A stretch of DNA of 36,017 bases, taken from positions 1 to 36,017 of IMG/VR virus record IMGVR_UViG_3300046557_000824; one strand, 5' to 3'. Positions 1,087 to 33,212 of the stretch are shown here, piece after piece. Within the stretch, counting starts at the first letter, position 1. Each line of letters begins with the position of its first letter. The position numbers and the translations under genes were made by a program. Under the pieces are notes generated by a model, which was not told the DNA's origin, ran no database searches, and was given only the letters and a program-made list of their open reading frames with translations. The DNA comes from a virus.

Positions 1087-1126
1087 CTCCCCTCTACCCG
1101 TTGGGGTAGAGGGGAGGTATGTCGTC
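1087..1126. terminator. Bidirectional terminator hairpin between convergent genes, with TATGTCGTC
   Basis: A perfect 13-bp stem (1087-1099 with 1104-1116) with a 4-nt loop sits between convergent genes. On the plus strand it is followed by TATGTCGTC (1118-1126). On the minus strand it is followed by CTATGACCTG and a T-rich run (complement of 1066-1072). Confidence 0.8.
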
Positions 1127-1140
1127 AGATTACTTCTCTG

Positions 1141-1215
1141 TTATTGATTCTTACGGAACAGTTTGGCCCAAACTTCAACGGGAAGCTTGGCTAGTTTACC
1201 AGTTGGATCTTTCAT
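1141..1215 (-). CDS. Possible 24-aa basic microprotein
   Basis: A short frame starts with ATG at 1215, 3 nt after the stop of the upstream gene, and ends at TAA just before the terminator hairpin. The product (begins MKDPTGKLAK, ends LFRKNQ) is lysine-rich and amphipathic, with a natural-looking composition. No clear Shine-Dalgarno is visible, so translation would rely on coupling to the preceding gene. Function unknown. It may be a chance frame. Confidence 0.4.
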   Translation of the reverse strand: MKDPTGKLAKLPVEVWAKLFRKNQ

Positions 1216-1218
1216 GAT

Positions 1219-1476
1219 TCAGTTCAGTGAAGTGGGAATATGGCCGCAGACAAAGCTGTCGGCCGGCGCTTGGGGATTAGTGCGGAACAGGTCGCCAGCA
1301 GTGACGTTAAAGACCTCGCCATCGACGTAGTTGACATGTTGGTCACCCGCGATAACTGTCACGCGCTGTACGCCATTACGCAAGAACTCCGAGGCAATGA
1401 CCCGGACTGCTTCCGACTCATACGCTGCGTCACTAGACGTTACGACGACCCGGATTTCAAACAAGCCGCTAGCCAT
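1219..1476 (-). CDS. Hypothetical protein, 85 aa
   Basis: Small protein beginning MASGLFEIRVVVTSSDAAYE. The pattern of hydrophobic strands alternating with polar turns suggests a compact alpha/beta fold. No motif is recognised. The start overlaps the end of the upstream 112-aa gene by 8 bp, so the two are very likely translationally coupled and part of one transcript that ends at the hairpin near 1100. It has no signal peptide or membrane segment. Confidence 0.75.
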   Translation of the reverse strand: MASGLFEIRVVVTSSDAAYESEAVRVIASEFLRNGVQRVTVIAGDQHVNYVDGEVFNVTAGDLFRTNPQAPADSFVCGHIPTSLN

Positions 1477-1807
1477 TATCGTCTCCGAAGTACGGTGACA
1501 TCAAGATGGGTTCCATCGTAATTTGTTCCGGTTCCGACAACGCGTCTTCATTTTGCAAGATCGTCGTGACGGCTGTGGGAGAAATCACCGAGATAGCTGC
1601 GATGAGTTTCGCCACGTCGAGGTTAAGCTGAGGTGCGCACATGAGGGGCTCCCCGGTATGCGGACTGAAGGCCATGACTTCAACCCCGAGTTCAGCGATC
1701 CCTTGCTCGACATTTGCCATCACGAAGTCACTCAGTTGTTGCATGTGTTCTGGATAGTCCTTGCCATCGACCGAACGCACTTGGATCTTGATCTGCAAAT
1801 CTTTCAT
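1469..1807 (-). CDS. Hypothetical protein, 112 aa
   Basis: The start was chosen at ATG 1807 (MKDLQIKIQVRS) because AAGGAC lies 8 nt upstream. The frame remains open for 28 further codons, but those would run into the upstream terminator. The N-terminal strand (LQIKIQVRSV) and later helix-rich part suggest a small alpha/beta protein. No known domain is recognised. It is first of a two- or three-gene unit, overlaps the 85-aa gene by 8 bp, and follows a strong terminator, so it must have its own promoter or depend on read-through. Confidence 0.75.
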   Translation of the reverse strand: MKDLQIKIQVRSVDGKDYPEHMQQLSDFVMANVEQGIAELGVEVMAFSPHTGEPLMCAPQLNLDVAKLIAAISVISPTAVTTILQNEDALSEPEQITMEPILMSPYFGDDNG

Positions 1808-1831
1808 ACATAGTCCTTTCGATGTAAGGGC

Positions 1832-1878
1832 AAAAAAGATCAGGGAGGGGACAGACCGAAGTCCATCCCACCCCCTGA
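1832..1878 (-). terminator. Rho-independent terminator after the 641-aa gene
   Basis: Read on the minus strand, a long GC-rich stem (complement of 1840-1878) is closed by a UUCG tetraloop and followed by a run of six T (complement of 1832-1837). It is 37 nt beyond the stop of the Pro-rich gene and looks like a textbook intrinsic terminator. Confidence 0.85.
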
Positions 1879-1914
1879 CAAAAATCACCACTTAATCTTC
1901 TCTAGCCTTGGGCC

Positions 1915-3840
1915 TTACTTGACCAGCTTCAGCAGGTAGGTTTCCGGGATCAGCGTGCCCTCGAACACTTCCAGGATGCGGCCATCGACGGTCACGATCA
2001 GCTTACGGTCAGCGCCTTGGTCGTTGATGTCCGGATCGAACAGCGACGCGACCAGATCGTACAACACTGCGCTGTGCTGCTTGGTGACGACGTTGCTCAC
2101 CCCCAGCATGCCGTCGATCAGCAGGTCGTGCGACACCACATTCAGGAACGTGATGCCCACAGTCGGACCGTAGAACGTGAACTGCGGCAGATCCTCGCGG
2201 CCTTCCCAGCTTTCCGTCAGCATGCCGCTGGTGAGCGAATCATGCAGTTCACGACCGGCTTCGTCCGTGATGACTGGGGCCGAGAACATGGCCTTGATGC
2301 GGGCGCCTTGGCCGTTGATAAAGGCACGGTACAGACGATCGTCGGCACCACGTTTCTTCAGCACGTCCAGCAGGGCGTCGAGGTCGGCCACGAAATCATC
2401 AACTTCGATACCGTTGACCGGATCTTGCGACACCGGCAGGATCGACAGGCGATCCGTCAGGATGTCGTTCATCAGCTTGGTCAGCTTCAGCGTGATGTCG
2501 GTCAGGAGCGCCGGCGAGGCCGTCGCCGCTGCTGCGCGGATCTTTTCACGCAGTTCGATGTAGCTGCTGCTGTCGCCGAGTTTGTGGATCAGATCGTACT
2601 CGCTCTTTTCACCGATGATCGGGGTGAAGATTTGCGCATAGGTCTGGAACACCATCGGCGGGTTCTTGCGGTCGATCTTGGCCAGCATTTCGGTCCGCAG
2701 GTCGGTGATGGCCGAGTCCAGGTTGTAGGCTGACAACACGTTCCGCAGACCCATCGCCTCTTCCTGACGCTGGCCTTCCTCATCGACGTTGCGGGCCTCT
2801 TCCGCAGCATCGCGGGCACCGTCCTTGATCTGGTGGATGATCTCGGCGTTGTCCGTCACGACCTTCTGGCCTTCGAGCGGCTTGTTGAAGAGCGTGGCGA
2901 TGTTGTGGCGATCGTAGTTGATGGGGTCCATGTTGGTCTTTGCAGGCTGTGGTTTGGTTTTACCGTCGACAATCGCGTACATCATCTTCACGCGAACCGG
3001 GTTGTACAGCATCGGGTGTGGGGTGCCCGAATCCGGATTCCACTTAGTATCTTCCGGATCGACCAGGGACACCGAACCTTGCGGCTGCTGGGCAGCCTGC
3101 GGGGCGGCAGGCGGTACCGGTGCCGACGGGGGCATCGGACGCATCTGCTGCGGCGGAGCGACCGGCGCAGGTGGTTGGATCGGCGCGGGCGGCTGACCAC
3201 CGGTACCGTAATCGCGACCCGTACCGCTGTTACGCGGTTGACCCACCGGTGCACCGTAACCCGGCGTCTGGTAACCCTGCTGGGCTGGCATCGGTGCGCC
3301 CGGAGGGGCGTACTGGACCGGCGGCGGATAACCACCAGCCATCGGTGCCGGCGCTGGTGCCATGTTTTGCGACACACCGTTACGCAGGTTGACGATGGCC
3401 TTGATTTCGCCGTCGAACATCTGGGCGGCTTGGTCGAAGGTGTAGATGTCTTGCGGTGCGATGTAGCTGCGCAGTGCCGGGAACAGCGCGACTTCGAAAT
3501 CGGTGCGCAGTTTGACGTAGGTCGGCGCCAAGCGGGCGATCAGGTCCGGATTCTGCTGACCTTGTGCCTTCAGGAAGACGAAGTCCGCGCAGTTCGCCAC
3601 TTCCTGCCCGAACTCGTTGTTGGCCCAGCTGTTCTTCGACATGTTGTTGTAGAAGTGCATCGACACCGGGCCTTGGGCGTTGCGGGTGATGATGTCGATC
3701 ATGATCCCGGTCAACCACGGCAAGTACTGATGAATCCACGGCGCGCAGCGGATGTCGAATGCGACCGGTGGCCGGTTCACGTCGATCTGCACCATCGGCG
3801 TTTGCGGCGCGTCGGTGCGATATTGAGTTTGTGCGTACAT
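1915..3840 (-). CDS. Pro/Gln-rich linker protein, 641 aa, probably structural
   Basis: The start is ATG 3840 (MYAQTQYRTDAPQTP) with AAGGAA 9 nt upstream; the frame stays open for 53 more codons but without a ribosome binding site. Three parts are visible. Residues ~1-155 are a globular N-terminal domain. Residues ~160-270 are a disordered linker rich in Pro, Ala, Gln and Gly. From ~275 to the end is a large C-terminal domain that includes a helical Asp/Glu/Arg-rich segment and a beta-rich end. It follows the 204-aa gene by 46 nt and ends at a strong terminator. Two globular domains joined by a Pro-rich linker fit a virion or scaffold protein, but I do not recognise the family. Confidence 0.85.
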   Translation of the reverse strand: MYAQTQYRTDAPQTPMVQIDVNRPPVAFDIRCAPWIHQYLPWLTGIMIDIITRNAQGPVSMHFYNNMSKNSWANNEFGQEVANCADFVFLKAQGQQNPDLIARLAPTYVKLRTDFEVALFPALRSYIAPQDIYTFDQAAQMFDGEIKAIVNLRNGVSQNMAPAPAPMAGGYPPPVQYAPPGAPMPAQQGYQTPGYGAPVGQPRNSGTGRDYGTGGQPPAPIQPPAPVAPPQQMRPMPPSAPVPPAAPQAAQQPQGSVSLVDPEDTKWNPDSGTPHPMLYNPVRVKMMYAIVDGKTKPQPAKTNMDPINYDRHNIATLFNKPLEGQKVVTDNAEIIHQIKDGARDAAEEARNVDEEGQRQEEAMGLRNVLSAYNLDSAITDLRTEMLAKIDRKNPPMVFQTYAQIFTPIIGEKSEYDLIHKLGDSSSYIELREKIRAAAATASPALLTDITLKLTKLMNDILTDRLSILPVSQDPVNGIEVDDFVADLDALLDVLKKRGADDRLYRAFINGQGARIKAMFSAPVITDEAGRELHDSLTSGMLTESWEGREDLPQFTFYGPTVGITFLNVVSHDLLIDGMLGVSNVVTKQHSAVLYDLVASLFDPDINDQGADRKLIVTVDGRILEVFEGTLIPETYLLKLVK

Positions 3841-3886
3841 GCTGCTTTTCCTTCTTCTTAGTAGTGGTGATGAATTATGCTTGTTG

Positions 3887-4501
3887 TTACTTCTTTTCGT
3901 CCGTCTTGTCCGCGTGGTCGAACATGGCTTTGACTTCCGCGAGCGCTTGACCGGGCACATACGGCAGACCGTCGGTCTTTTCGATGGATTCACGTTCACC
4001 CACCGACTTGTCAGGCACGTTACGCGGTTCCTGCGCGTAACGATCTGCGTTGTTCAGATCACTCAACACCCCGCACGACTTCAGCGGCGCAACGAACGGA
4101 CGAACCTCCATGTCGATAGGCGGTTTAGGCCAAGGCTGAATGCGAACCGGCGGTTGATCTTCCTCGCCGCGCGTCAGGCGGTTGAACATTTCGATCGCGC
4201 GGATCTGGTTATGACTTTCAGCATGATCTTCGAGATGATAATAGCGCTCGATCGATAGCGGGAAGATGTACGCCTCTTCACCACCAATCATCGAGAGGGT
4301 CTTGGCGTACGAGTCAATCACCGACATCTGTAAGGACGTCAGCCGGTTGACTTCGTAATAGCCGTTCTCGCCGGTGAGGAGAATGGTGTTGCGTTTTTGC
4401 AACAGCTCACGTAGCTCATCGGTAGTGGTACAGCGAACACCCAAAACCAATGCAATCGCGTTCAGATCCAGACCCCCTGGACTGGTTTCTTTGTCACTCA
4501 T
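3887..4501 (-). CDS. Hypothetical protein, 204 aa
   Basis: It starts with ATG 4501 after a strong AAAAAGGAG 9 nt upstream. The product begins MSDKETSPGGLDLNAIALVL. It is acidic, with a helix-rich N-terminal half and a Pro-rich segment around residues 115-135. The last 40 residues are charged and end in DKTDEKK, probably disordered. No motif is recognised. It lies between the RNAP-beta-like gene and the 641-aa gene on the same strand with no terminator hairpin, so it is probably co-transcribed with them. Confidence 0.8.
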   Translation of the reverse strand: MSDKETSPGGLDLNAIALVLGVRCTTTDELRELLQKRNTILLTGENGYYEVNRLTSLQMSVIDSYAKTLSMIGGEEAYIFPLSIERYYHLEDHAESHNQIRAIEMFNRLTRGEEDQPPVRIQPWPKPPIDMEVRPFVAPLKSCGVLSDLNNADRYAQEPRNVPDKSVGERESIEKTDGLPYVPGQALAEVKAMFDHADKTDEKK

Positions 4502-4598
4502 GGTAAATCTCCTTTTTGTTGATTGTTACCTAAATACGGAATACCAAACTTTTTCTTGGCGAATCTGGGTTTCGTTTTAGTTTTGGATAGTGCAGGTA

Positions 4599-6293
4599 TT
4601 ACAGTTCGATCTTCCGCTGGGCATCGTCGTAGATATCGACGAATTGGGCGTGCCGTTGAATCACGTTGTCCAGCGTCAAGCCCACGAATGGGTTGATGCG
4701 GAAGTGACCCGACGGTTGTGACTTCGGCAGGTTGGCGTACCCGCCCACTTCGACCACCGAGATGTGCAACTGATTGATGGGATCGCGCAGTTGCAAACCA
4801 CCTTTCTTTCGTCCGCCCTTGTTGGTGTGTTGCTGCGGGACGAGGAGACTCGTGATCTTGAACACCTTGTTGTCGCCCGGATAGCTGTTGGCTGACACAG
4901 CCCCCGACGATTTGTAGATGTGGAAGATCGCGCCGGTGCGGATCTTGTTGCCGAACACGTGGTTGAACTTGTCCGCAGTCAGGTTCTGTTCTTCGCAGAG
5001 TTTCAGCATCTGGAAGCCCAGTTCCATGATCGACTTGCTGATGTCGAACAGGACGAACTGCAGAATGTTCAGTTCCTTGTCGTACATCGACGAGAGTTTG
5101 CTGCGGTTGGCCAGCAGCAGCGGATCGAAGTCCTGGATCATGCGGGCGAACAGCTGGTAGACATTATCGACCTGGTACCCGATATTGTTCAGCTGATCTT
5201 TGACGATCGGATCGATGTACTCATCGAGCGAACGCATGTGGCTTTCCATCTCTTTCAAGACTTTGCCTTCACCCGAGCCCGGTGCCACGAGGTGCCCCAG
5301 AATCAAGATCCACATCCGCCTTTCGTGCCCCAACTTTTCCTGGTCTTGCCGCACCACGTAATTCTGCAGGTGGGCAACACGGTCCGGGAACCGGTCAGCG
5401 ATGTAGTAGAACGCTCCGATCAGGTTGTGCACCATCGTGTTGTCCGCACCCTTACGGATGGCGATGCGGATCTTGGTCGGCCGGTAGCTCTCGTTACGAC
5501 GACCACTCGGGTGACCGTTGTGTTCGCTGCGTGAGGTACGGGCGATGTGCCACTCCGAGCTCGGGTACTTTTCCGTCGTGATGTTTTCTGCGTCACCGAT
5601 CACCACTTCGGTCCCGGCGAACTGGCGGAACGTCTCCAGAATACCGTACTTGCAGAACAGGTAATGGCCGAGGGTGGATTCGGCAATCACACTGTCGGGA
5701 TCGTTCTTGTCCCGCACCACTTTCTTTTGGTGGATCTTCGACCACACCACGTGCGCGAACGTTTCCACATCGTCGACCCGGAAGTGTTGGCTGATCCGGT
5801 TGATGTTGAAACGGGTTTTGATGAGACGCACAAAGATGGTTTTGCGCATCACCGAAATCACACGGTCTGCGAGCACCGGCGAAATGGTGTACAGCGAATC
5901 GCTGATCCGGATGAAACCACCATCATCGACCCACGGCAGGTACAGGAACCGGGGCTTCAGTTTGGTGGTCACTTGGCTGCCCGGTGGCGTATACTCGAAC
6001 TCGTAGCGCATCATGTACACATACGACTTGGCGATATCGAACTGCGAGCGCTGGCTGTTCTTGGTCGACTTCTGGTTATGCCGCTTGGTGGCTTCGCGGT
6101 ATTCTTCCATCGGGGTACAACGCTTGCCACCCACAAAGCGCAGACCAGGCGGGAACGTGTCCTTGATCGACTCGAACAGCATCCTGATGAAGTTCTCGGA
6201 TTTGGGGATTTCCGTAACGGCAAACCCGTCGACAACTTTCTTGTTGAACGGGGGCATATCGTCACGAACAAATGCCCGAAGTGATGGGTCCAT
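4599..6293 (-). CDS. Probable phage RNA polymerase beta-subunit N-terminal fragment (phiKZ gp123-like)
   Basis: A 564-aa protein starting at ATG 6293 with AAAGGAG 11 nt upstream. Residues 125-140 (GGFIRISDSLYTISPV) resemble the G-x-F-I-x-x-x-x-x-x-x-I-S motif of the RpoB protrusion. The end of the protein (SGHFRINPFVGLT, ~528-540) resembles the RpoB fork region (P-S-H-x-G-R-x-C-P-x-x-T-P-E-G). The similarity thus runs from the protrusion to the fork, and the chain stops about where split phage beta subunits are cut. In phiKZ-type phages beta and beta' are each encoded by two genes, and gp123 is the N-terminal beta part of the non-virion enzyme that transcribes middle/late genes. Its place three genes from the capsid gene agrees with that. 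The virion RNAP paralog is the main alternative. Confidence 0.72.
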   Translation of the reverse strand: MDPSLRAFVRDDMPPFNKKVVDGFAVTEIPKSENFIRMLFESIKDTFPPGLRFVGGKRCTPMEEYREATKRHNQKSTKNSQRSQFDIAKSYVYMMRYEFEYTPPGSQVTTKLKPRFLYLPWVDDGGFIRISDSLYTISPVLADRVISVMRKTIFVRLIKTRFNINRISQHFRVDDVETFAHVVWSKIHQKKVVRDKNDPDSVIAESTLGHYLFCKYGILETFRQFAGTEVVIGDAENITTEKYPSSEWHIARTSRSEHNGHPSGRRNESYRPTKIRIAIRKGADNTMVHNLIGAFYYIADRFPDRVAHLQNYVVRQDQEKLGHERRMWILILGHLVAPGSGEGKVLKEMESHMRSLDEYIDPIVKDQLNNIGYQVDNVYQLFARMIQDFDPLLLANRSKLSSMYDKELNILQFVLFDISKSIMELGFQMLKLCEEQNLTADKFNHVFGNKIRTGAIFHIYKSSGAVSANSYPGDNKVFKITSLLVPQQHTNKGGRKKGGLQLRDPINQLHISVVEVGGYANLPKSQPSGHFRINPFVGLTLDNVIQRHAQFVDIYDDAQRKIEL

Positions 6294-6325
6294 GTACTGC
6301 TCTCCTTTTTGTAGACTCGTACCGC

Positions 6326-7489
6326 TTAACTGCTCTTGAAGGTCTTCCAGGCCATCAAGATCATCCCTACCGCCGACAGGATCGTGGGTAGGAACTTGAT
6401 AAATTCCGAAGCATCTTTGCGCTCAGCCGATCGCTCTTCGTATTTATCCTTCATTTGCATCTTCTGCATTTCTGAAAGGTGTTCTTGCTGATTCCTCAGT
6501 TCCTTCATTTGGATTTCGGTGGCGCTGCGCTGCGCTTCCATTTCAGCAATGGTGCGTTTGCGTTCTTCTGCTTCGCGTTCCATCGCCAGCTTTTCTTGTT
6601 GCCACTCATGCTTTTCTCTAGCAAACTCATGTTCACGTTCTTGCGCTTCGCGTTTGCGATTGCCCGCGATATCGCCATGCGTTTGAGCCAGTTCATAGGT
6701 CGCGTACACCCCCAACTCTTTCTCGATGTTGTCGAGCGAGTAAGCCCGCACCTGGATGTCGGTGGAAGTGATGCGACCATTTGACGGCTTACTAGATACA
6801 ATATACAGACCGTCCGGTCGATTTTTATCACGCTTGGGTACAATCTTGTAAATTTGATTACAAATCGACACGAAACGTTCACCATATTTTCCTAGGTTGT
6901 CAATAATTTCTACCCAGAAAACAAAGCCATGCGTGTCTTGTATCTTTTCTGCCGCCTCCACCACTGCCGCTTGGCGTCCATCTACGCTGTGCGGGTGGGC
7001 GACATCGAATGGTTCTACACCAAACTTGAACATGGTGTCCAGCTCGTCATGGTAGAAGAGACCACCGTTGTTGTTGAGGTCCGTCTCAGTGAAGGTATAC
7101 TCCACCACACAGCGCAGTTCATGGGTACGTCCAAAGCGATAGATGTTGTCGTAGACTTGCAAGTACGCTTTGCGGAAGGCATCGAGTTCGCCATAGACAT
7201 CAGGCAGCTCAGTAAAGTAATTTCGCATCGCCTCAGCGCAGGCTTGCCCCACCACCAACTCTTTCCTTACCACAAACGTTTCATCATGGGCGTACTGGGT
7301 ACGCACCGGCACGGCTGGGATGTTGAGTTCCAGGTTGGAGCGCATTTTAGCGCGGATGACTTTGCGGGTGTTGTTGATGTAACGGGTGTTGATCTGGAAA
7401 TGAGAAAGTCCACCCGACTCAGCTTCACCTTGCTTCACACTTGCGATGCGGATTTTACCGTAAAAGGTAACGATGTCTTCTTGTTTCAT
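6326..7489 (-). CDS. Coiled-coil protein with a C-terminal membrane anchor, 387 aa
   Basis: Residues 1-260 form a globular, beta-containing domain. Residues ~270-360 are a continuous Glu/Lys/Arg/Gln-rich helix with heptad character, a likely coiled coil. Residues ~366-384 (FLPTILSAVGMILMAW) form one hydrophobic segment, followed only by KTFKSS. This is the layout of a tail-anchored protein with its bulk in the cytoplasm. No enzymatic motif is seen. It ends 32 nt before the RNAP-beta-like gene, with no terminator between, so the two are probably co-expressed. A membrane- or shell-tethering role is possible but is inference. Confidence 0.8.
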   Translation of the reverse strand: MKQEDIVTFYGKIRIASVKQGEAESGGLSHFQINTRYINNTRKVIRAKMRSNLELNIPAVPVRTQYAHDETFVVRKELVVGQACAEAMRNYFTELPDVYGELDAFRKAYLQVYDNIYRFGRTHELRCVVEYTFTETDLNNNGGLFYHDELDTMFKFGVEPFDVAHPHSVDGRQAAVVEAAEKIQDTHGFVFWVEIIDNLGKYGERFVSICNQIYKIVPKRDKNRPDGLYIVSSKPSNGRITSTDIQVRAYSLDNIEKELGVYATYELAQTHGDIAGNRKREAQEREHEFAREKHEWQQEKLAMEREAEERKRTIAEMEAQRSATEIQMKELRNQQEHLSEMQKMQMKDKYEERSAERKDASEFIKFLPTILSAVGMILMAWKTFKSS

Positions 7490-7588
7490 GGCGGCTATCT
7501 CATTCTAATGGTTAGTGCGGGTAGAGTTATCTAGACCCTTGACAGTAGAGTGATATAGTCGTGAAAATAATTAGACTTTTTTTTTTTT

Positions 7589-7631
7589 GACGGCATACAG
7601 CAGGGGCGCGCAGCCCCTGCTGGGTTATGCC
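7589..7631 (-). terminator. Hairpin plus TATGCCGTC element after the 157-aa gene
   Basis: A 10-bp stem (7598-7607 with 7613-7622) is flanked by GGCATA (7592-7597) and TATGCC (7626-7631), which can extend it. On the minus strand the hairpin is followed by TATGCCGTC (complement of 7589-7597). The next bases on that strand are A-rich rather than T-rich, so it is not a canonical intrinsic terminator. The stop codon of the 157-aa gene lies inside the element. Confidence 0.6.
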
Positions 7632-8098
7632 TTTGTTCGAGCGCGGGTGTGGGTATAATGGCCAGTTACCATGAAATCCATGGGGATGCAGTTACAGGCG
7701 TACTTGTCTGCAACACCCATTTTCCGAGCACGCTTATACGCCATGCCGGTGGTGATACCATCTTCCATCAAACGTTCACCATCTTTGCTGAAGTAACGCA
7801 CCCCTTTCCAGATCTCGTTCAATTTGTTGGCGACCTCTTGGGCGGCGGTCTTGTCCTCCCACCAACATCCCACGGTGTAAGCCCACGGCGCTTTACCTTC
7901 TTGCATGTGGGGTGGCACAAACGCTGCACGGAAATTGGTCAAGCGTTTGTAGGGGATGTGTTTGTTGATCCGGCGGCCTCCTTTGCTGATGCCCGTAACT
8001 TCCACGCTTTCGGCGCTTTGGTTGGCACTCAGGAGATACACCTTGGCCCCGGTGCGCAGGGCTTTGTCCGTCTTAACGTTGGCGACAATGCAAAACAT
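7625..8098 (-). CDS. Hypothetical protein, 157 aa
   Basis: It starts at ATG 8098 with AAAGG 8 nt upstream and begins MFCIVANVKTDKALRTGAKV. The protein is basic and rich in Lys/Arg (GISKGGRRINKHIPYKR around residues 37-53), with several aromatic residues and two cysteines late (C-N-C). A nucleic-acid contact is possible from charge alone. No family is recognised. It sits between the capsid gene and the coiled-coil gene, with hairpin/TATGCCGTC elements on both sides, and so looks like its own transcription unit. Confidence 0.78.
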   Translation of the reverse strand: MFCIVANVKTDKALRTGAKVYLLSANQSAESVEVTGISKGGRRINKHIPYKRLTNFRAAFVPPHMQEGKAPWAYTVGCWWEDKTAAQEVANKLNEIWKGVRYFSKDGERLMEDGITTGMAYKRARKMGVADKYACNCIPMDFMVTGHYTHTRARTKA

Positions 8099-8175
8099 GG
8101 TGATACCTTTCTCCCATTATGGGGTATGGACTATTTGAAATAGTGCTGGGCATTCGCCCGTTGTTACAAAAGATA

Positions 8176-8191
8176 AAACTACTTAGTAATT
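8176..8191 (-). promoter_or_regulatory. AT-rich block shared with the capsid leader, possible phage promoter
   Basis: The minus strand reads AATTACTAAGTAGTTT about 80 nt upstream of the 157-aa gene. An almost identical block, AATTACTAATAGTTT, occurs upstream of the capsid gene (10605-10619). Being the same motif upstream of two units makes a phage promoter or regulator site plausible; no mapped start is available. Confidence 0.4.
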
Positions 8192-8194
8192 TTT

Positions 8195-8234
8195 GACGGC
8201 ATAAAGCAGCCTCCCCCTACCCGAAGGTAGAGGG
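8195..8234 (-). terminator. Hairpin plus TATGCCGTC element downstream of the capsid gene
   Basis: The stem is CTACC/GGTAG with a CGAA loop (8217-8221 and 8226-8230), extended by CCC/GGG after one mismatch. On the minus strand it is followed by TATGCCGTC (complement of 8195-8203). It lies ~115 nt beyond the capsid stop. Confidence 0.6.
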
Positions 8235-8281
8235 AAGTAGCCCCAATGCTTGTGCTGAAAGGACAGCTTACAGCCATGGGC

Positions 8282-8329
8282 TGGGAGGATAGCTGAGCGG
8301 TTATCTCCTCTCTCAGACTTCTCCTCCCA
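8282..8329. other. Structured 3' untranslated stem of the capsid transcript
   Basis: An 8-bp outer stem (8282-8289 with 8322-8329) encloses a 5-bp inner stem (8293-8297 with 8312-8316), directly after the capsid stop codon. It could stabilise the capsid mRNA 3' end. It is too short and lacks the arms to be a tRNA. Confidence 0.5.
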
Positions 8330-8346
8330 ACTCATTTGCCGAAGTC

Positions 8347-10542
8347 TTAGACGTTCTTCAGAACGACCGGGACTTTGGCGTTGACCACATCTTCGATACC
8401 TTCCACGTCGATCTCGATCAGCAGCGGCAGGTTGACGAAGTGGCGGAATGCCGGCGACACGGTGACTTCTTTCGAGGTCTGGCCATCGCGGCTCACCGGC
8501 AGGATGATGGTCATTTCCGGACGGTACATGGTGGTGCCGAAGTGCAGGACATTCGGGATGCCTTGCGCTGCGGTTTCCATGTTGCCGAACGTGATGTACA
8601 TCTTGCCACGCAGGTTCTTGTTCGTGTCGGACACGACCTTGACCGGGAACTTGTCACCCAGCAGGCGCAGATCGCCCTGGATGTTCAGGTACTGTTCGAT
8701 GCGCGGATCGCAAGCGATGATGACGGTCGGGATCTGACCGACGCCACCGTTCTGCGAAGCCGATGCCGGGCCGTAGCTCGACAGTTGCCACATCTTGAAC
8801 ACGTGGTCCTGGACCATGTTGGTCAGCGAAGCGCGGATGTCCGCGTTGCGCTCGGACGACTTCAGGCTGTCCACCACGTCCGGCGCGGTGTACTTGTCGT
8901 ACGCGTAGTACGGGTCCAGCAGCCAGCGAGCCAGGCCGAAGGTCTCGACCGTCTCGCCAGGCATGTGGAACTGGCCTTGCATCGCCTTCATGGTTGCAGC
9001 GTGGTTCTGCAGCACTTCGACGGCGTCGATCGACGAACGGGTCTTGGTGGTGAAGATCAGGAACGACAGGTCACGTGCGTCGTTGACATCGCCGGCGCTG
9101 TGCGGACGAACGATGGTGACCGGAGCCAGCAGGTTCAGCGGGTAGAACTGGCGCTTGGTGTTGGTGTCCATGGTCTGGCCACGCAGACGACGGTTCAGGT
9201 TCGAACGCTTCGCTGCCAGGGTGTAACCGATGACTTCGGCGCCCTTGAAGATGTCAGCGATGGTTTTGCCACCACCGGAGTCGGTAGCGACTTGCACGCC
9301 GTTCTTGGCGACAGTTGCGACTTCCGGTGCCGGGCCGTAGACCGAGCCGTTACCGAATTGCAGGTTCAGGCGGCCGGACAGAGCCACCGACAGGCGCACT
9401 TCGTAGCTGCCGGTCTTGATCGGGTCCAGCAGGGTTGCGACGGTGCCGTCTTCCTTGGTGGTGCTGCCCGAAACCAGCAGGCCACTGTTTTCGAACGACA
9501 GTTGCTGGTCGCGGTAGTCGCCCTGGGTCGCCGGGTAGTAACCAGCGTACGGCAGTTCCTTGACGTTGAAGCGGATGACTTCGGTCTTGGAGCCATCGGC
9601 CGATTTCAGCGCGATGTAGATGTTTTCCAGGAACACGCCGGTGTCGATCGAGTCGGTCTGGTTCGGCAGGCCCTTGGCGACCATGGCGTCGGTGTGCGAC
9701 AGCGACAGCAGGTCGAACTTGGCGCCGACTTTCAGCGCGGTGGTGGTGATCACTTCACCGTTGTTCATCTTGCGGTCGATCGGCTGCACCAGGGTGGTGT
9801 CGACGAAGTTCTGCTTCGATTCGTCACGCAGCACTGGCACCAGGTCGGATGCATCGTTGTGCAGCAGTTCCGGGTAGGTCTGTGCGCGGATGACGTTGTA
9901 ACGGTGGAAGTTCGTGACGGCGCCGCTGATCTGGCGGTTCGCGTCGTCTTGCAGCAGGGCCAGGTCGATCGACATGAACAGGCCGGCTTCGTTCGGCGGG
10001 ATCACGACGGTCGGGAACAGGGTTTCGGCCAGTTCCGATTGACGTGCGCATTCCAGGTTGTAGGCCACCGAGAAGGCGATCGAGGTCGAGGTCGATTGAT
10101 CGTCGTAGGCTTCGTTTGCAGCACGACGCTCGTACGGGGTACGGTCGCCGGATTCGCAGACGGTGATGCCTTCGGTCGAGAAGGCCGGCTTGGTCGGAGC
10201 CTTGACGGCGGCGCCCAGGTCGTGGCCCAGCATCGCGGCGATGGTGGCGGCTTGCAGTTGCTGTTGGTTGTAGCTGTGGGTCGGACGGCCGGTCTTGCTG
10301 TCTTCGACGCCCCAGGCTTCGGTAGCGATGGTTTCGATCTTGTTCAGCAGGCTGGAAGCCGTGTGCTGCAGGTTTTCGATGGCGAGCGTGTTGCCCGAGA
10401 TCGATTCCAGCGAGATCATGTTCTTGGCGACGTCAGCGCCTTGAGCCGAGTGAGCGAAGGTTTCGACTTCCGCGAGGGTGCGATCCAGGAAGCCCGGCAG
10501 GCCACGCGAGTTCGCGCTGTTGTTGAAGATGATGCTTTTCAT
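8347..10542 (-). CDS. Major capsid protein precursor, phiKZ type
   Basis: A 731-aa protein. The start was chosen at ATG 10542 (MKSIIFNNSANSRG) with AGGA 12 nt upstream; a TTG four codons earlier lies too close to that site. The length matches phiKZ-like capsid proteins (~745 aa). Residues 122-124 are S-T-E followed by G, fitting the (S/A/G)-x-E site of the phiKZ-group prohead protease. Cleavage there would give a 124-residue propeptide and a mature shell protein of ~607 residues. Codon choice is strongly biased (C/G in third position), as expected for the most abundant virion protein, and a hairpin-rich trailer follows. The assignment rests on size, cleavage site, codon bias and the neighbouring RNAP-like gene, not on an alignment. 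Confidence 0.8.
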   Translation of the reverse strand: MKSIIFNNSANSRGLPGFLDRTLAEVETFAHSAQGADVAKNMISLESISGNTLAIENLQHTASSLLNKIETIATEAWGVEDSKTGRPTHSYNQQQLQAATIAAMLGHDLGAAVKAPTKPAFSTEGITVCESGDRTPYERRAANEAYDDQSTSTSIAFSVAYNLECARQSELAETLFPTVVIPPNEAGLFMSIDLALLQDDANRQISGAVTNFHRYNVIRAQTYPELLHNDASDLVPVLRDESKQNFVDTTLVQPIDRKMNNGEVITTTALKVGAKFDLLSLSHTDAMVAKGLPNQTDSIDTGVFLENIYIALKSADGSKTEVIRFNVKELPYAGYYPATQGDYRDQQLSFENSGLLVSGSTTKEDGTVATLLDPIKTGSYEVRLSVALSGRLNLQFGNGSVYGPAPEVATVAKNGVQVATDSGGGKTIADIFKGAEVIGYTLAAKRSNLNRRLRGQTMDTNTKRQFYPLNLLAPVTIVRPHSAGDVNDARDLSFLIFTTKTRSSIDAVEVLQNHAATMKAMQGQFHMPGETVETFGLARWLLDPYYAYDKYTAPDVVDSLKSSERNADIRASLTNMVQDHVFKMWQLSSYGPASASQNGGVGQIPTVIIACDPRIEQYLNIQGDLRLLGDKFPVKVVSDTNKNLRGKMYITFGNMETAAQGIPNVLHFGTTMYRPEMTIILPVSRDGQTSKEVTVSPAFRHFVNLPLLIEIDVEGIEDVVNAKVPVVLKNV

Positions 10543-10604
10543 GGTTGTAACCAATCCTTTATCAGGAGTAAGGGAAAGAATTTGCTTTGGGGCTTATTCA
10601 GCTC

Positions 10605-10619
10605 AAACTATTAGTAATT
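10605..10619 (-). promoter_or_regulatory. AT-rich block upstream of the capsid gene, possible phage promoter
   Basis: The minus strand reads AATTACTAATAGTTT, ~65 nt upstream of the capsid ATG, in an AT-rich gap. It matches the block at 8176-8191 except for a single inserted G. Confidence 0.42.
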
Positions 10620-10644
10620 ATTTACCGAACTAGTCAGAGAATAA

Positions 10645-11271
10645 TTAAGCTAACGATTCAAGGTACTTCCGGAAGTAGGGTGTCTTGCACCCCGATGCGG
10701 GCGTGTTGTACACATACAATACTTTCAACACCTCTTTGCAAAGGCTGACAACATTGTCTGCATACGAGGCACTCTCAAAGAATGCCGGATACACAACGAC
10801 GATTAAGAACTCACGCTCCACGTCATAGGTAATAAAGGGGTGGTTATGCGCGATACGTCCAGCATTGGCCGGGTCAAACCGCATTGCCACTTCCTGCTCA
10901 GCCATCTGGTTCCATGACAACGAGTTCATGACTTCCAAATTTTTGAACAGCTTATTATCATTTGCATCCGAAGAACCGGACACGCATTTACGCCACGCTT
11001 CATACAGTGGGGATGTAAATGCGTGTTCAGTGATGCTGGTTTCACCCGCTACCACTTCAAGTCCGTACGTCGGCGTGTGGCGATCGCCCACCACCTTGGT
11101 CTTGAACGGATTGAAGTCTTCGAACAACAGCATGTTGCCTTGCTCTTGGGCGCTCACGTACTGTGCCATCTTGCGGTAGTCCAGAATCGTGGACAATGGC
11201 AAGTTGTTCAGCTCCAGCGCACGGGCGATCCAGTACGGAACGAAGACAACGTCTTTCTTTTGTTCCACCAT
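10645..11271 (-). CDS. Hypothetical protein, 208 aa
   Basis: It starts at ATG 11271 with AAGGAG 7 nt upstream and begins MVEQKKDVVFVPYWIARALE. It is an alpha/beta-looking soluble protein with a hydrophobic strand (FLIVVVYPAFF) near residue 155. The C-terminal end holds Cys and aromatic residues. No family is recognised. It is the first minus-strand gene left of the divergent region and is directly upstream of the capsid gene, from which it is separated by a ~100-nt AT-rich gap. A head-assembly or capsid-linked role is possible by position only. Confidence 0.8.
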   Translation of the reverse strand: MVEQKKDVVFVPYWIARALELNNLPLSTILDYRKMAQYVSAQEQGNMLLFEDFNPFKTKVVGDRHTPTYGLEVVAGETSITEHAFTSPLYEAWRKCVSGSSDANDNKLFKNLEVMNSLSWNQMAEQEVAMRFDPANAGRIAHNHPFITYDVEREFLIVVVYPAFFESASYADNVVSLCKEVLKVLYVYNTPASGCKTPYFRKYLESLA

Positions 11272-11310
11272 TGAGAACTCCTTGGGAAACCCAGATTTAA
11301 AAAAACGGAC

Positions 11311-11340
11311 GAGTCCTTTAGTATGAAGAACTAAAGACTC
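11311..11340. promoter_or_regulatory. Stem-loop in the divergent intergenic region, attenuator-like on the minus strand
   Basis: The 124-nt gap between divergent genes holds an inverted repeat (11311-11322 with 11330-11340, one bulge). On the minus strand it is followed by a run of seven T (complement of 11299-11305) and then the Shine-Dalgarno of the 208-aa gene. That is terminator-like but sits in a leader, so attenuation or insulation between the two directions is possible. The promoters themselves are not recognisable. Confidence 0.5.
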
Positions 11341-11395
11341 TCATAGAAGAATAACTACTAACGCATCACGCGTCGAACTAACCAGAAAAAACATC

Positions 11396-12961
11396 ATGGA
11401 CACTAAACTTTTGTTGGTCAATTCGATCACACTTCTTTACCGTGAAAGCCAGCAAGTTGGTCATACCAATAACGCAGCAGAAGATGTACTGAAAGTCGTC
11501 GAAGAAACCAAGGCGCCGGAGATGAGTCTTGGCCGGGATATTCGCGATCGCTCGACCGAAGTGTTGATGAATTTAAAAGACACCGCCTACTACATGGCGT
11601 GTCTGCCGTATGACCATCAATACGAACCGAATGAACTGCTGCAACGCCTGAAGATGAACTGCGGTGACGACGACATCACCTACGAAGCGTTGCAAGGCGG
11701 CATCATGCCAGAGTTGTCGGAGAACGCACTGAAACGCACGTGCCTCAACTTACGTAGTCAGATTCGTAATTATTTCCGCAGCAAAGAAGTCGAGCGCATC
11801 ATCGTCGATGCGTTCAGCAAGGTCAAGTTCAACAAGTCGAAGATCCAGTCGATGAACACCTTCGCCATGGAACTGCGCGAGAAGCTGGAACCGTACACCA
11901 CCAACATGCTGGAGAAGGACCCGGCCGTGGTGAACGAAGTCGACTTTAGTAAACCAGAAGAAGTGCGGGAAGTGTTCCAGTCGGTGAAAGAAAACGAGGA
12001 AGGCAACACAATTTTGCAACTCGGCTTGCAAGGCAAGAACCGCATGCTTGACGGTGGCTACCGTCGCGGTGAAGCGGTGATCGGCCCAGCGGCGTTACCA
12101 CACAACTTCAAGACTGGCGGTAACCTCACGGACTTTCGCCATATCGCGGTGTACAACACCCCGGTGCTGCGCGACCCGACCAAGAAACCGTTGCTGCTGC
12201 GGATCTCGTTGGAAGATAGCCTGCGTGAGAACTTCCAATTCTTGTACGAGCAGTTCTACTGCAACGAACACAAGCACGACAAGATCAAAGCCCTACCGGA
12301 TCTGACGATCCTGAGCGATGAAGAACTGGCGGCGTATTTCATCCCTCGGATGACGGCCACGGGTTTCCATATCCGCATGATGCGCGTCAATCCGTCGGAG
12401 TGGACCTATCTGGATGTGCAAAACAAAGTATTGCAGTTGGAGTCCGAAGGGTTCGAAGTGATCGCGTTGTTTGTCGATTACTTGGCGATGCTGCCGACCA
12501 CGGGTTGTATCATGACCACGGCTGGTTCGGATATCCGGGACATGTTCCGTCGTATCCGTAACTTCTGCGCGCCGCGCCACATCCTGTTCATCACCCCGCA
12601 CCAGCTCTCGTCGGATGCCAAGAAGTTGTACCGGGACGGTCAAAACAACTTCGTCAAGATCTTGCCAGGTAAAGGCTATTACGACGGCTCGCAACGTCTG
12701 GACCAAGAAGTCGATTTGGAACTGTTCCAACACATCGAGTATGTGAACGGCAAACCGTACTTGACCCTGCAACGGGGTAAACACCGTAAGACCCGTCAGA
12801 CCCCGATGATTGACCGCTATTGCGCTTGGCCGCTACATGAAGTGGGCAATCTGCTGGATGACGTGGATGGCCCGGATACGGGTCTGCGTAAGCCGGGCGC
12901 TGGCCCGATTGGTTCCCCGCGTGAAAACCCTGTTTGGTCGTTTGACGGCGACATCTTGTAA
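11396..12961 (+). CDS. DnaB-like replicative helicase with variant Walker A
   Basis: A 521-aa RecA-fold ATPase of the DnaB/gp41 type. Residues 1-200 are a helical N-terminal part. The ATPase core has R-R-G-E-A-V-I-G (223-230) and a Walker A variant LPHNFKTG (234-241), which keeps the Lys-Thr. It then has an S-L-E-D-S motif H1a (271-275, DnaB S-L-E-M-S), a Walker B with VIALFVDYLAML (355-366, Asp361), a motif H3 Gln in I-T-P-H-Q-L (~403) and a late L-Q-R-G-K-H-R-K segment like motif H4. It would unwind DNA at the phage replication fork. There is no good Shine-Dalgarno; the start at 11396 is the first ATG after the divergent leader. It heads the plus-strand operon with the SNF2 ATPase. Confidence 0.85.
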   Translation: MDTKLLLVNSITLLYRESQQVGHTNNAAEDVLKVVEETKAPEMSLGRDIRDRSTEVLMNLKDTAYYMACLPYDHQYEPNELLQRLKMNCGDDDITYEALQGGIMPELSENALKRTCLNLRSQIRNYFRSKEVERIIVDAFSKVKFNKSKIQSMNTFAMELREKLEPYTTNMLEKDPAVVNEVDFSKPEEVREVFQSVKENEEGNTILQLGLQGKNRMLDGGYRRGEAVIGPAALPHNFKTGGNLTDFRHIAVYNTPVLRDPTKKPLLLRISLEDSLRENFQFLYEQFYCNEHKHDKIKALPDLTILSDEELAAYFIPRMTATGFHIRMMRVNPSEWTYLDVQNKVLQLESEGFEVIALFVDYLAMLPTTGCIMTTAGSDIRDMFRRIRNFCAPRHILFITPHQLSSDAKKLYRDGQNNFVKILPGKGYYDGSQRLDQEVDLELFQHIEYVNGKPYLTLQRGKHRKTRQTPMIDRYCAWPLHEVGNLLDDVDGPDTGLRKPGAGPIGSPRENPVWSFDGDIL

Positions 12962-12981
12962 TTCTAGCTAAAAGCACCCTA

Positions 12982-13030
12982 CCACTCTCTAGCCTATCCT
13001 GTGGCTAGAGAGTGGATGGATTATGTCACT
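12982..13030 (+). terminator. Hairpin after the helicase gene followed by TATGTCACT
   Basis: A perfect 13-bp stem (12982-12994 with 13003-13015) has an 8-nt loop, 20 nt after the helicase stop. It is followed by TATGTCACT (13022-13030), a variant of the TATGNCGTC motif found after other hairpins. It may end or process the helicase transcript, and lies ~50 nt upstream of the next start. Confidence 0.6.
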
Positions 13031-13068
13031 CCGATTATTCTAACAAATCTCCCATAGGCGGAATCGAC

Positions 13069-15111: not shown

Positions 15112-15114
15112 TGT

Positions 15115-15591: not shown

Positions 15592-15610
15592 TGTTTCAGG
15601 GAGTAGAGAG

Positions 15611-15967: not shown

Positions 15968-16004
15968 ACGTCATAGCTCCCGCTACCCCGAAGGGTAGCG
16001 GGAG
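15967..16004. terminator. Bidirectional terminator between convergent genes, with TATGACGTC
   Basis: A perfect 12-bp stem (15977-15988 with 15993-16004) has a CGAA loop. On the minus strand it is followed by TATGACGTC (complement of 15967-15975) and then a T-rich run (complement of 15954-15964). It separates the DUF6527-like gene from the minus-strand 491-aa gene. Confidence 0.85.
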
Positions 16005-16014
16005 ATCTGTGCCC

Positions 16015-19947: not shown

Positions 19948-19974
19948 GCATAGTCCCAGCCCTTACGGGCCGGG
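19948..19974 (-). terminator. Hairpin terminator after the paralog array
   Basis: The stem CCCaGCCC/GGGCcGGG (19955-19962 with 19967-19974, one mismatch) is followed on the minus strand by CTATGCTATATTTTC and a T run (complement of 19933-19938). This is a diverged form of the hairpin/TATG element. It lies 5 nt beyond the stop at 19980. Confidence 0.72.
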
Positions 19975-19979
19975 GCCTG

Positions 19980-27281: not shown

Positions 27282-27324
27282 GACGGCATACCTAGCCCCC
27301 GTGATGGGAGGCTAGGCGTTATGC
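27282..27324 (-). terminator. Hairpin plus TATGCCGTC element
   Basis: The stem CCTAGCC/GGCTAGG (27291-27297 with 27310-27316) is extended by CCC/GGG. Outer GCATA/TATGC pairs flank it. On the minus strand it is followed by TATGCCGTC (complement of 27282-27290) and TCTTTTT, so it fits an intrinsic terminator for the 149-aa gene. Confidence 0.8.
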
Positions 27325-27327
27325 GGT

Positions 27328-27777
27328 TTATTTGGTGATGATGGGGATAACTTTACGACCGACGGAACCGGGGGCGTAGTTGGCACAAATAGCGGTGGCC
27401 ATGGCGCGGGCATCGGTTACCATGCGCGACATGCTGCGGTGCCCCGAACGTTGCAATTTTTTGTTCGGTTTGATCTGGAGTTGCAGCTTCAATACACCTT
27501 TGTCGACCGTGGTGGTGACCAGGGCGGTGTGGGCCATTTCCAGTTCTTCCCGGCGCAGGTTAAAGAAGAACTCGCCGCAGGGTTTATAGTCCTCGTTGTA
27601 ATGCAGCCGACATTCGATGTCCGCGAACGCCGAGTTACGGCTCGGCAGCGGGAACACGACCTTGTCCTTGGTGGCTACCAGATTCAATGCTTCGATCACG
27701 TCATAGACGAATTTGAAGTCGCTAGGGCATGCGTCATGCGGGCTATTCTTGTTTCTGGTTTCGTCGATCAGATTCAT
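27328..27777 (-). CDS. Hypothetical protein, 149 aa
   Basis: Begins MNLIDETRNKNSPHDACPSD. The C-terminal part is basic (K-P-N-K-K-L-Q-R-S-G-H-R-S-M-S-R). There is a beta-rich middle around E-C-R-L-H-Y. The Shine-Dalgarno is weak (TTAGAAACC before ATG). The gene starts 12 nt after the 130-aa gene and likely shares its transcript, which ends at the hairpin near 27300. Not recognised. Confidence 0.75.
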   Translation of the reverse strand: MNLIDETRNKNSPHDACPSDFKFVYDVIEALNLVATKDKVVFPLPSRNSAFADIECRLHYNEDYKPCGEFFFNLRREELEMAHTALVTTTVDKGVLKLQLQIKPNKKLQRSGHRSMSRMVTDARAMATAICANYAPGSVGRKVIPIITK

Positions 27778-30134: not shown

Positions 30135-30152
30135 TAACCAAAAAAATGTAGA

Positions 30153-30189
30153 GACGACATAAATCCCGCTACCCTTCAGGGTAGCGGGA
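30153..30189 (-). terminator. Hairpin plus TATGTCGTC element
   Basis: A perfect 11-bp stem (30164-30174 with 30179-30189) with a TTCA loop is followed on the minus strand by TATGTCGTC (complement of 30153-30161) and then TTTTTTT (complement of 30140-30146). It lies just past the stop at 30199. Confidence 0.85.
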
Positions 30190-30198
30190 GTATGCGCG

Positions 30199-30600
30199 TT
30201 AAGCGGCGAGCGGGGTGGGAACAGCGACAGTGACTGGCAGTTTGTTCAGGCGCAAGAACTGTTGGATATCGTTTGCGATGTGGGGTGCGGTCTTTTGGTT
30301 GTACTTCACCCGGACTGCGTTTTCATCGAACGACTTGGCCATGTAGATCACCGAGATCAAACCGTCGTCCGTCAGCTTGGTTTCGATGTATACCCGACGG
30401 GTAATGGGGCGGTGGCCCCATTTACGTTCCAGCCAATCAGCGGTGAAGGAAATCGCGGTCATGGCAGTAGCGTCGATATGCACGCGGATGGCTGCATCGT
30501 TGATACAGTAGTTGCGCACCGCTTCCATGGCATCCATGACGAAAGCGGCGTAAACTGCACCGCCCTTGGAAGGCGATACTTGTTTTGTCGTTGTGAGCAT
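30199..30600 (-). CDS. Hypothetical protein, 133 aa
   Basis: The start was chosen at ATG 30600 (MLTTTKQVSPSKGGAVYAAF), although it lacks a Shine-Dalgarno (leader AATAACAAACAAA). The frame extends to a TTG inside the upstream hairpin, which is less likely. It is an alpha/beta protein with helix A-F-V-M-D-A-M-E-A-V-R and later strands (R-V-Y-I-E-T-K-L). Its own hairpins flank it on both sides, so it is monocistronic. Not recognised. Confidence 0.72.
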   Translation of the reverse strand: MLTTTKQVSPSKGGAVYAAFVMDAMEAVRNYCINDAAIRVHIDATAMTAISFTADWLERKWGHRPITRRVYIETKLTDDGLISVIYMAKSFDENAVRVKYNQKTAPHIANDIQQFLRLNKLPVTVAVPTPLAA

Positions 30601-31463: not shown

Positions 31464-31474
31464 GATAGACTCCT

Positions 31475-32377
31475 TTATGTTGTTAATTTTGCGTCTGGTT
31501 GAAGGATTTGAATCTGGTCATACTCCGCCGGTTTTTCATTCATCCGGTCTTTGAGGGTAAACAGCACTTGGATGTCGTGGTGTTTCTCCAGCGTACCGAG
31601 GCGGAAGAACGTGAAGCGACGCAGAATCTCCCGGTGCAGAATCACACCGAGCAGATCCGGGTCGAGACTGTTGCTGAGGCGTTTCTCAATATTCCACTGT
31701 GGTTTGGTGACACTACTGGTGACTTCAGCAATGCGGTTCCAACGCGGCAGATCGGCCACTTGCAGGGAGAAGAAGTACGAGATCCCAGCAAAGCGCATTA
31801 CACCGAAGAAGCCATCGCGCGGGTACGTGTGCGCGACCGTATCCGGATTGACATCTTTCTGCGACAGTTCTTCAAAGCGACGGCTATAGAAGCTCTGCGG
31901 TGGCGCCTTGGCGTCGTTGGGGTCACGGCACACCACCCGGTCATGCATGTGAAAGAAGATCAGGTTGGGTAGCTCGATAAACATCTGGTAGCCACCCATC
32001 GAACTGTTGATCGGTTCGATCCGCGAGCCTGGCTTTTGCCCCATGTAACGGCCACTGGGGTTTAACAGCCACATCAAGTACCGGCGCATGGTGGGCAACC
32101 CGTGGACCTGCACCGGATAACCATACAAGTTCTTAAAGTACTGCGTGATCACGTTTTCCAGCTCCGCTTTCAAATCGTCAAAGCGGTTGTATTTGATGTT
32201 ACGATTGCGTACCGTAGCACTGACCTTCAAACGGTAATACACCAGGTCGTCACCATGCAGATCGTTGATGATCAGGCGACCCGAGGGGTATTGTTCAAAA
32301 GCCGTGGCGCTGGCCGGGAAGTCACAGATTTCCACGCAGCCAAACGATAACTCAATCCTGTCTAGGTACTTTTCCAT
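31475..32377 (-). CDS. Hypothetical protein, 300 aa
   Basis: It begins MEKYLDRIELSFGCVEICDF at ATG 32377, with AAGG close upstream and the AATCAATAACA leader before it. It is a beta-rich protein with many aromatic residues and Arg (T-M-R-R-Y-L-M-W-L-L-N-P-S-G-R-Y), including F-F-G-V-M-R-F-A-G-I-S-Y-F-F-S-L near 190-205. No catalytic motif is recognised. It follows the 101-aa gene in the same unit. Confidence 0.8.
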   Translation of the reverse strand: MEKYLDRIELSFGCVEICDFPASATAFEQYPSGRLIINDLHGDDLVYYRLKVSATVRNRNIKYNRFDDLKAELENVITQYFKNLYGYPVQVHGLPTMRRYLMWLLNPSGRYMGQKPGSRIEPINSSMGGYQMFIELPNLIFFHMHDRVVCRDPNDAKAPPQSFYSRRFEELSQKDVNPDTVAHTYPRDGFFGVMRFAGISYFFSLQVADLPRWNRIAEVTSSVTKPQWNIEKRLSNSLDPDLLGVILHREILRRFTFFRLGTLEKHHDIQVLFTLKDRMNEKPAEYDQIQILQPDAKLTT

Positions 32378-32395
32378 AAACCTTGTTATTGATTG

Positions 32396-32701
32396 TTAGC
32401 CGACCTTGACACTAATCGAGGTTTCCACATGGACTGGATTAACCTCGATCGGGATGAATGCCTTGGGTGTACCGAAACGCGGTTGGAGTGCGTCTCGGGC
32501 CCGCTTGATGATTTCTGCTTCCCACAGCGCTTTGTCGAGATATGCGATATACTCGATGAAGTTTTTGGTGGTGGACGGGTCGCCGACATCATAACCTTCT
32601 TCACGGACCGAACCCGTCTCCAGAATCGCCCAGTGTTTTTCTTTGGGGATCTCGTCTTGCGTGTGGCACCAGATCGGGCCGAGGTTCTCTGGTTTATTCA
32701 T
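32396..32701 (-). CDS. Hypothetical protein, 101 aa
   Basis: The ATG at 32701 overlaps the end of the deoxyribosyltransferase-like gene by 8 bp, so translation is coupled. The protein begins MNKPENLGPIWCHTQDEIPK. The middle is helical (F-I-E-Y-I-A-Y-L-D-K-A-L-W-E-A-E-I-I-K-R-A) and the C-terminal part ends in strands (V-H-V-E-T-S-I-S-V-K-V-G). Not recognised. Confidence 0.75.
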   Translation of the reverse strand: MNKPENLGPIWCHTQDEIPKEKHWAILETGSVREEGYDVGDPSTTKNFIEYIAYLDKALWEAEIIKRARDALQPRFGTPKAFIPIEVNPVHVETSISVKVG

Positions 32702-33119
32702 TTTTCAGGAACTCCACTGGATCGAGGTAAATCATGGGTAGGGTGCTGGGACGATCGTTCCACAGTTCGGTCTCGGCAGCAATGCCGGTTGACTTTTCCC
32801 AACCATCGATCATGAGAACGATTGCGCGGTCGCACTTGCCAAGCATGACTTCGGAGTACTCGCCCCAGTAAGCCCAGTCACCTGGCAGTTCATTGACATA
32901 GGTGCGCAGCAGGTGCATCAGCACCGGGCTGCAGGTCTTGATCCCCATGTGCATGAGTTTCGCCATGCACAGGCTCACGACGCGCACACGCTCGGCGACT
33001 TTGACCTTGTCTTCACTGCCGTCAGGTAACTTGGCGGTGTAAGGAGCAAGGATGTACACCAGATCGGTAGGGAGGATCTGTTTCAGTTCGATCAGGGTGT
33101 TGTGGTGTTGTACGTTCAT
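32694..33119 (-). CDS. DUF1937 / nucleoside 2-deoxyribosyltransferase-like protein, 141 aa
   Basis: It starts at ATG 33119 with AAAAGGAA upstream. It has V-Y-I-L-A-P-Y-T (21-28), then A-K-L-M-H-M-G-I-x-T-C-S-P-V-L-M-H (53-69), D-W-A-Y-W (81-85), and C-D-R-A-I-V-L-M-I-D-G-W-x-x-S-x-G-I-x-x-E (96-116). This is the order of the small Rossmann-like family DUF1937, related to nucleoside 2-deoxyribosyltransferases, where the last Glu (E116) would be the nucleophile. Such phage proteins may act on nucleotides or on nucleotide-derived signals; the substrate cannot be read from sequence. Confidence 0.8.
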   Translation of the reverse strand: MNVQHHNTLIELKQILPTDLVYILAPYTAKLPDGSEDKVKVAERVRVVSLCMAKLMHMGIKTCSPVLMHLLRTYVNELPGDWAYWGEYSEVMLGKCDRAIVLMIDGWEKSTGIAAETELWNDRPSTLPMIYLDPVEFLKNE

Positions 33120-33177
33120 GTTGTTATTCCTTTTAATGTTTGACTCATAAATGCATGTTCGCTAATCGCAAAATATC

Positions 33178-33212
33178 GACGGCATAAAGAAGAGGAGCCG
33201 GAGCTCCCCTTC
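33178..33212 (-). terminator. Hairpin plus TATGCCGTC element
   Basis: The stem GGAGC/GCTCC with a CGGA loop (33194-33198 and 33203-33207) is extended by four pairs after a mismatch. On the minus strand it is followed by TATGCCGTC (complement of 33178-33186) and ATATTTT. It lies in the gap between the 561-aa gene and the deoxyribosyltransferase-like gene. Confidence 0.65.

Follow-up and report, generated by a model that had tools for sequence, protein, structure and literature searches.

TATG beside hairpins at gene 3' ends: a candidate transcription terminator of phiKZ-like jumbo phages

The closest described systems to the element reported here are the Rho-independent terminator, the late promoter of phage phiKZ, the terminators of the jumbo phage AR9 and the DNA-uptake-sequence terminators of Haemophilus and Neisseria. 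The non-virion RNA polymerase (nvRNAP) of phiKZ initiates transcription at T-3ATG+1 and requires all four bases (PMC4666361), and its gp123 subunit holds the TATG of the non-template strand in a pocket located beneath the beta-lobe (PMC12809450). AR9 possesses a related multisubunit RNA polymerase and uses the late promoter AACA-N6-TA/G, and RNA-seq of this phage revealed strong termination at predicted terminators by jumbo-phage polymerases (PMC5312081). In Haemophilus and Neisseria, a fixed word is tied genome-wide to terminator hairpins (PMC1852404). Concerning the phiKZ-like polymerases, their promoters have been studied, but neither a stop signal of the family nor an account of how the enzymes stop was found in the open-licence literature that we searched, which included a 2026 jumbo phage review and a phiKZ review.

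The window, which is the whole stretch of DNA analysed here, is a 36 kb virus contig that represents part of a phiKZ-like jumbo phage genome. It encodes a major head protein of the phiKZ type (phrog_3231), a DnaB-like helicase (phrog_3213) and an nvRNAP subunit (phrog_2943), and it was assigned to the phiKZ-like phages on the homologues of helicase, gp119, head protein, gp122 and gp123 and on their order. Among named phages, Burkholderia phage FLC9 has the closest head protein (39% identity), and a nucleotide search of phage records did not identify a close relative. Head proteins 71-84% identical to that of the window are present in five environmental contigs, and two further related contigs were recruited via the DNA pattern. 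The comparison set consisted of 7 related contigs together with 8 named phiKZ-like genomes (phiKZ, PhiPA3, 201phi2-1, FLC9, LucasX, Ea35-70, FLC6 and PhiEaH1) and two controls, AR9 and T4. Genes were called with a home-made hexamer model, by which a few gap classes may have been wrongly assigned, and hairpins were called with a fixed score. Rfam and tRNA searches gave no match.

The word TATGNCGTC occurs eight times in the window, against a mean of 0.93 and a maximum of 4 in dinucleotide shuffles. Exact copies are present at all of the eight positions given in the initial annotation, 1118 on the plus strand and 7589, 8195, 15967, 17551, 27282, 30153 and 33178 on the minus strand. As had also been claimed, every copy is preceded by a hairpin. 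The hairpins are strong, are separated from the word by 0-7 nt and lie 3' of a stop codon. The elements combine a stable GC-rich hairpin at the gene 3' end, as in a Rho-independent terminator, with a TATG in the sense strand, as in a phiKZ-type late promoter; that TATG is the core of the latter had been correctly stated in the initial annotation (PMC4666361, PMC12809450).

Two of the exact copies are situated between convergent genes. The first is a bidirectional element (1081-1126, plus strand) between genes ending at 1061 (plus) and 1219 (minus), with CATA at 1081-1084, a hairpin at 1085-1118 and the word TATGTCGTC at 1118-1126. In the second (15967-16004, minus strand), the word TATGACGTC at 15967-15975 overlaps the opposing stop codon and the hairpin occupies 15977-16004. 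On the minus strand, the element after the gene at 7625-8098 (7589-7629) comprises the word TATGCCGTC at 7589-7597, a hairpin at 7598-7622 and a TATG of the other strand at 7626-7629. The element after the gene at 27328-27777 (27282-27318) has the word at 27282-27290, a hairpin at about 27291-27318 and CATA upstream, and that after the gene at 30199-30600 (30153-30194) has TATGTCGTC at 30153-30161, a hairpin at 30164-30189 and a plus-strand TATG at 30191-30194. CATA is not found in the remaining three minus-strand copies, which are the element after the major head protein gene (8195-8237; word 8195-8203, hairpin 8210-8237), an element with a T-run (17551-17591; word 17551-17559, hairpin 17566-17591) and the element after the gene at 33300-34985 (33178-33212; word 33178-33186, hairpin 33189-33212). 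Two variants that had been noticed near 13022 and 19948 proved to be genuine hairpin-TATG elements. One follows the helicase gene (11396-12961, plus strand) at 12982-13025, with the hairpin at 12982-13015 and TATG at 13022-13025, and the other (19949-19984, minus strand) carries TATG on both strands (minus, 19949-19952; plus, 19981-19984) around a hairpin at 19953-19976. CATA/TATG bases flank both sides in five cases (1118, 7589, 19948, 27282 and 30153), the number that had been indicated. We also observed that T-runs of 6-10 nt, with GG or GTT next, are often present 10-18 nt past the stem, beyond the word (window positions 15940-15966, 17535-17550 and 30135-30150, as well as relatives), and persist even across the end of an opposing gene.

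We examined whether the word is tied to hairpins in the clade of the window, where 72 exact words are present. Among these, 59 are intergenic, 24 in convergent gaps and 29 in tandem gaps in the sense direction, and nearly all lie beside a hairpin. Counting strong convergent hairpins with TATG within a few nt of the stem, 63 of 66 carried it on one side or more and 45 on both sides. When gaps of 25-400 nt between convergent genes were considered, a hairpin with TATG was found in 50 of 64 in the clade and 18 of 19 in phiKZ, and such enrichment between convergent genes is a property of Rho-independent terminators. TATG was also oriented in tandem gaps, being present on the sense side of 88 and on the antisense side of 36 of the 224 hairpins, and the word occurred on the sense side only in 64 cases and on the antisense side only in 12 (p=1e-9). 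On the other hand, only one of seven divergent hairpins, and only 6 of 526 sides of intragenic hairpins, had TATG. Away from hairpins, TATG was at background, with ratios of 0.94 in tandem and 0.82 in convergent gaps; equal frequency of the word off hairpins, the outcome that the initial annotation had named as speaking against it, was thus not observed. Neither side of 124 of the 224 tandem hairpins carried TATG, indicating that the hairpin-TATG element is not the sole terminator type, and many tandem hairpins had neither TATG nor a U-tract.

The comparison with related phages suggested at the outset revealed hairpins with TATG across the phiKZ-like family. One or both sides of the convergent hairpins carried TATG in 22 of 24 cases in phiKZ, 20 of 22 in PhiPA3, 18 of 21 in 201phi2-1, 17 of 17 in FLC9, 26 of 28 in LucasX, 14 of 15 in Ea35-70 and 13 of 19 in FLC6, with a weaker tendency in PhiEaH1 (10 of 20). 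Without assuming the word, TATG ranked first of the 256 tetramers 3' of convergent stems in 8 of 9 groups; in PhiEaH1 it was second to TTAT, and TATT/TTAT were as frequent as TATG. The consensus in most of the larger groups is a hairpin, mostly 0-3 nt, TATG(C/T)CGT(T/C) and T-rich DNA, the spacer in 201phi2-1 being 2 nt in 24 of 33 elements. The initial annotation had treated the full word, or a one-base variant of it, as the kept unit; what is kept is the hairpin with TATG, and the rest of the word is only a preferred extension, NCGTC. Its statement that the stem sequences differ stands, although within the clade the stems share a bias towards pyrimidines in the 5' arm and purines in the 3' arm. 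A hairpin with TATG follows the major head protein gene in 12 of the 15 genomes holding this gene, with differing stems, and a candidate terminator of this kind after phiKZ gene 120 reads GGCCCTCCCTTCGGGGAGGGCTTTATG. As a separate observation, GCATTGGGGCTA or a close variant abuts the stem after the head protein gene (window about 8238-8252, minus strand; also in relatives G004, G001, G002 and G007), and is kept there although the stem changes.

The element was absent from the control phages. In AR9, TATG was found at 3 of 22 convergent hairpins and ranked 29-32 of 256, T-rich tails being present instead; in T4, which has just two convergent hairpins, it was found at neither. In the tandem gaps of phiKZ, PhiPA3 and 201phi2-1 there was no sense bias (22 versus 34). 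CATAA ahead of the hairpin with no TATG behind it is common in these gaps, often as CATA upstream with TTAT downstream, and this pattern may reflect use against antisense transcription. TATG was present at 20 of 61 early operon ends and 105 of 222 others in these three phages, and the terminators of early and other operons did not split cleanly by polymerase.

The location of the word at gene 3' ends, most strongly between convergent genes, its background frequency off hairpins and its absence from AR9 and T4 favour a terminator. We consider it probable that the element is a family-specific transcription terminator of the phiKZ-like nucleus-forming jumbo phages, acting bidirectionally between convergent genes. 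Judging from the sequences, a GC-rich RNA hairpin would fold right after the stop codon, and 0-3 nt further on the phage RNA polymerase would meet TATG(C/T)CGT and T-rich DNA, where the transcript would end; RNA 3' ends are thus expected to form at the hairpin-TATG sites. Where genes converge, the word on both strands of one hairpin would allow a single site to halt both polymerases. A promoter-only reading, which the initial annotation had already disfavoured, fails in these gaps. Among the three suggestions of that annotation, the comparative data point to the terminator word rather than to an RNA-processing site or a combined stop/restart element.

Taking into account that the phiKZ nvRNAP is known to start at TATG, the hairpin might end one transcript while the adjoining TATG acts as a late promoter, with the next transcript starting at its G, and the word does sit upstream of the next gene in tandem gaps. 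We regard such a stop/restart function as unlikely. The elements are most regular between convergent genes and on both strands, where restarting would yield antisense RNA only, whereas a late promoter would be expected upstream of genes. Moreover, the mapped phiKZ late promoter, P119L, lies upstream of a gene and its TATG is not preceded by a GC hairpin. The window contains a promoter-like TATG without a hairpin at 11342-11345 (minus strand), upstream of the phiKZ gp119 homologue and at the position of P119L, and it is kept in most clade members. Divergent gaps showed only a small excess of TATG off hairpins (1.25x, z=2.5), which is to be expected if some of these copies are late promoters. 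In several gaps, a separate early-promoter-like motif is also present downstream of the element. The 8-mer TATATCAC is overrepresented ahead of genes in the clade, as noted in the window and in relatives G004 and G002, and its counterpart in phiKZ, PhiPA3, 201phi2-1 and FLC9 is TATATTAC. In the window it occurs at 7550-7557 (minus strand), about 40 nt past the 7589 element, as a candidate promoter of the next gene distinct from the element. Of the 26 tandem gaps bearing the motif, 16 have a hairpin-TATG upstream of it (p=1e-7), mostly by 25-50 nt, and past the stop signal the next gene would thus be served by a candidate promoter of its own.

A position 3' of stop codons also fits a motif read in RNA. 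A phage or host endonuclease might cut UAUG by the hairpin, or the hairpin might protect the 3' end, and a cut and a stop look alike in sequence. We find RNA processing improbable, as it requires an unknown nuclease common to all these phages, whereas a TATG-reading polymerase is known in phiKZ, and the near-constant presence in convergent gaps described above is the classic pattern of terminators.

It is likewise doubtful that the elements are ordinary intrinsic terminators with an interrupted U-tract, in which TATG is incidental to a T-rich tail. They resemble Rho-independent terminators in their GC-rich hairpin after the stop codon, near-universal presence between convergent genes, often palindromic form and nearby T-rich DNA, and the T fraction at +9 to +20 after the word is 0.39-0.44 as compared with about 0.26 further on. 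However, TATG(C/T)CGT occupies the place of the U-tract. Runs of five T peak 13-18 nt past convergent stems rather than directly after them, with T's coming first, directly ahead of TATG, in a minority of copies (17551 and 33178), and a standard U-tract scan detected 2 of the 6 elements in positions 1-18000. The enrichment of TATG exceeds that of TTTT, its conserved extension CCGT is GC-rich, and the terminators of AR9 and T4 are T-rich yet without TATG.

Two further explanations were rejected. The first regards CATA and TATG as a pairing that extends the stem. In two-sided elements, the distances of CATA and TATG from the stem were equal in 27 cases against 22.7 by chance (P=0.17), and are thus independent; together with the copies at 8195, 17551 and 33178, which have no CATA, this shows that pairing is not required and indicates separate directional copies of the word, one per strand, rather than a longer stem. 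In DNA-uptake-sequence terminators the word itself forms the stem; the phiKZ-family word is likewise fixed and tied to hairpins, but lies outside the stem with independent spacing on the two sides. A DNA repeat, packaging or uptake word is dismissed, as the word tracks 3'-end hairpins and is at background elsewhere.

Returning to the terminator, the candidate reader of the stop signal is the pocket of gp123. The window encodes a homologue of this beta-like nvRNAP subunit at 4599-6293 on the minus strand (phrog_2943, E=1e-137; phiKZ gp123, E=2e-62). The elements have in common with the late promoter both the tetranucleotide and its location on the non-template strand, and core residues of the pocket are kept in the family. 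Four of them, F151, H331, S334 and Q466, do not vary among 15 phiKZ-like proteins, which apart from the closest kin are mostly 25-30% identical to that of phiKZ; residue 406 is always aromatic and S144 is changed once. Strict invariance at 4 of the 14 named residues is a modest enrichment (p=0.0035), and the homologue in the window differs at Y399, N398 and S402. In the PhiEaH1 homologue, residue 144 is T and residue 406 is W, and this phage also leans towards TATT/TTAT over TATG behind its hairpins, so that reader and word may co-vary.

If gp123 is the reader, the subunit would grip the non-template TATG as at late promoters and the polymerase would pause; a hairpin ending 4-7 nt behind the captured TATG would then shorten the RNA-DNA hybrid and pull out the RNA. 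The TATG at P119L and that at 11342-11345 have no hairpin, so that the same letters would mean start at such sites and, according to this proposal, stop where a hairpin precedes them. We raise only tentatively, and with the balance somewhat against it, the idea that the promoter-reading pocket is reused for stopping and that the presence or absence of a hairpin decides between these meanings.

These results define a family-wide candidate stop signal in the model phages phiKZ, PhiPA3 and 201phi2-1 that can be tested with purified phiKZ nvRNAP. Within one phage family, the short word TATG may signal the starting as well as the stopping of transcription. The phiKZ papers note the puzzle that TATG alone is insufficient for a promoter, and the many copies beside hairpins at gene ends may explain why. 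The element would also provide a simple marker of transcription-unit ends across hundreds of jumbo phage genomes.
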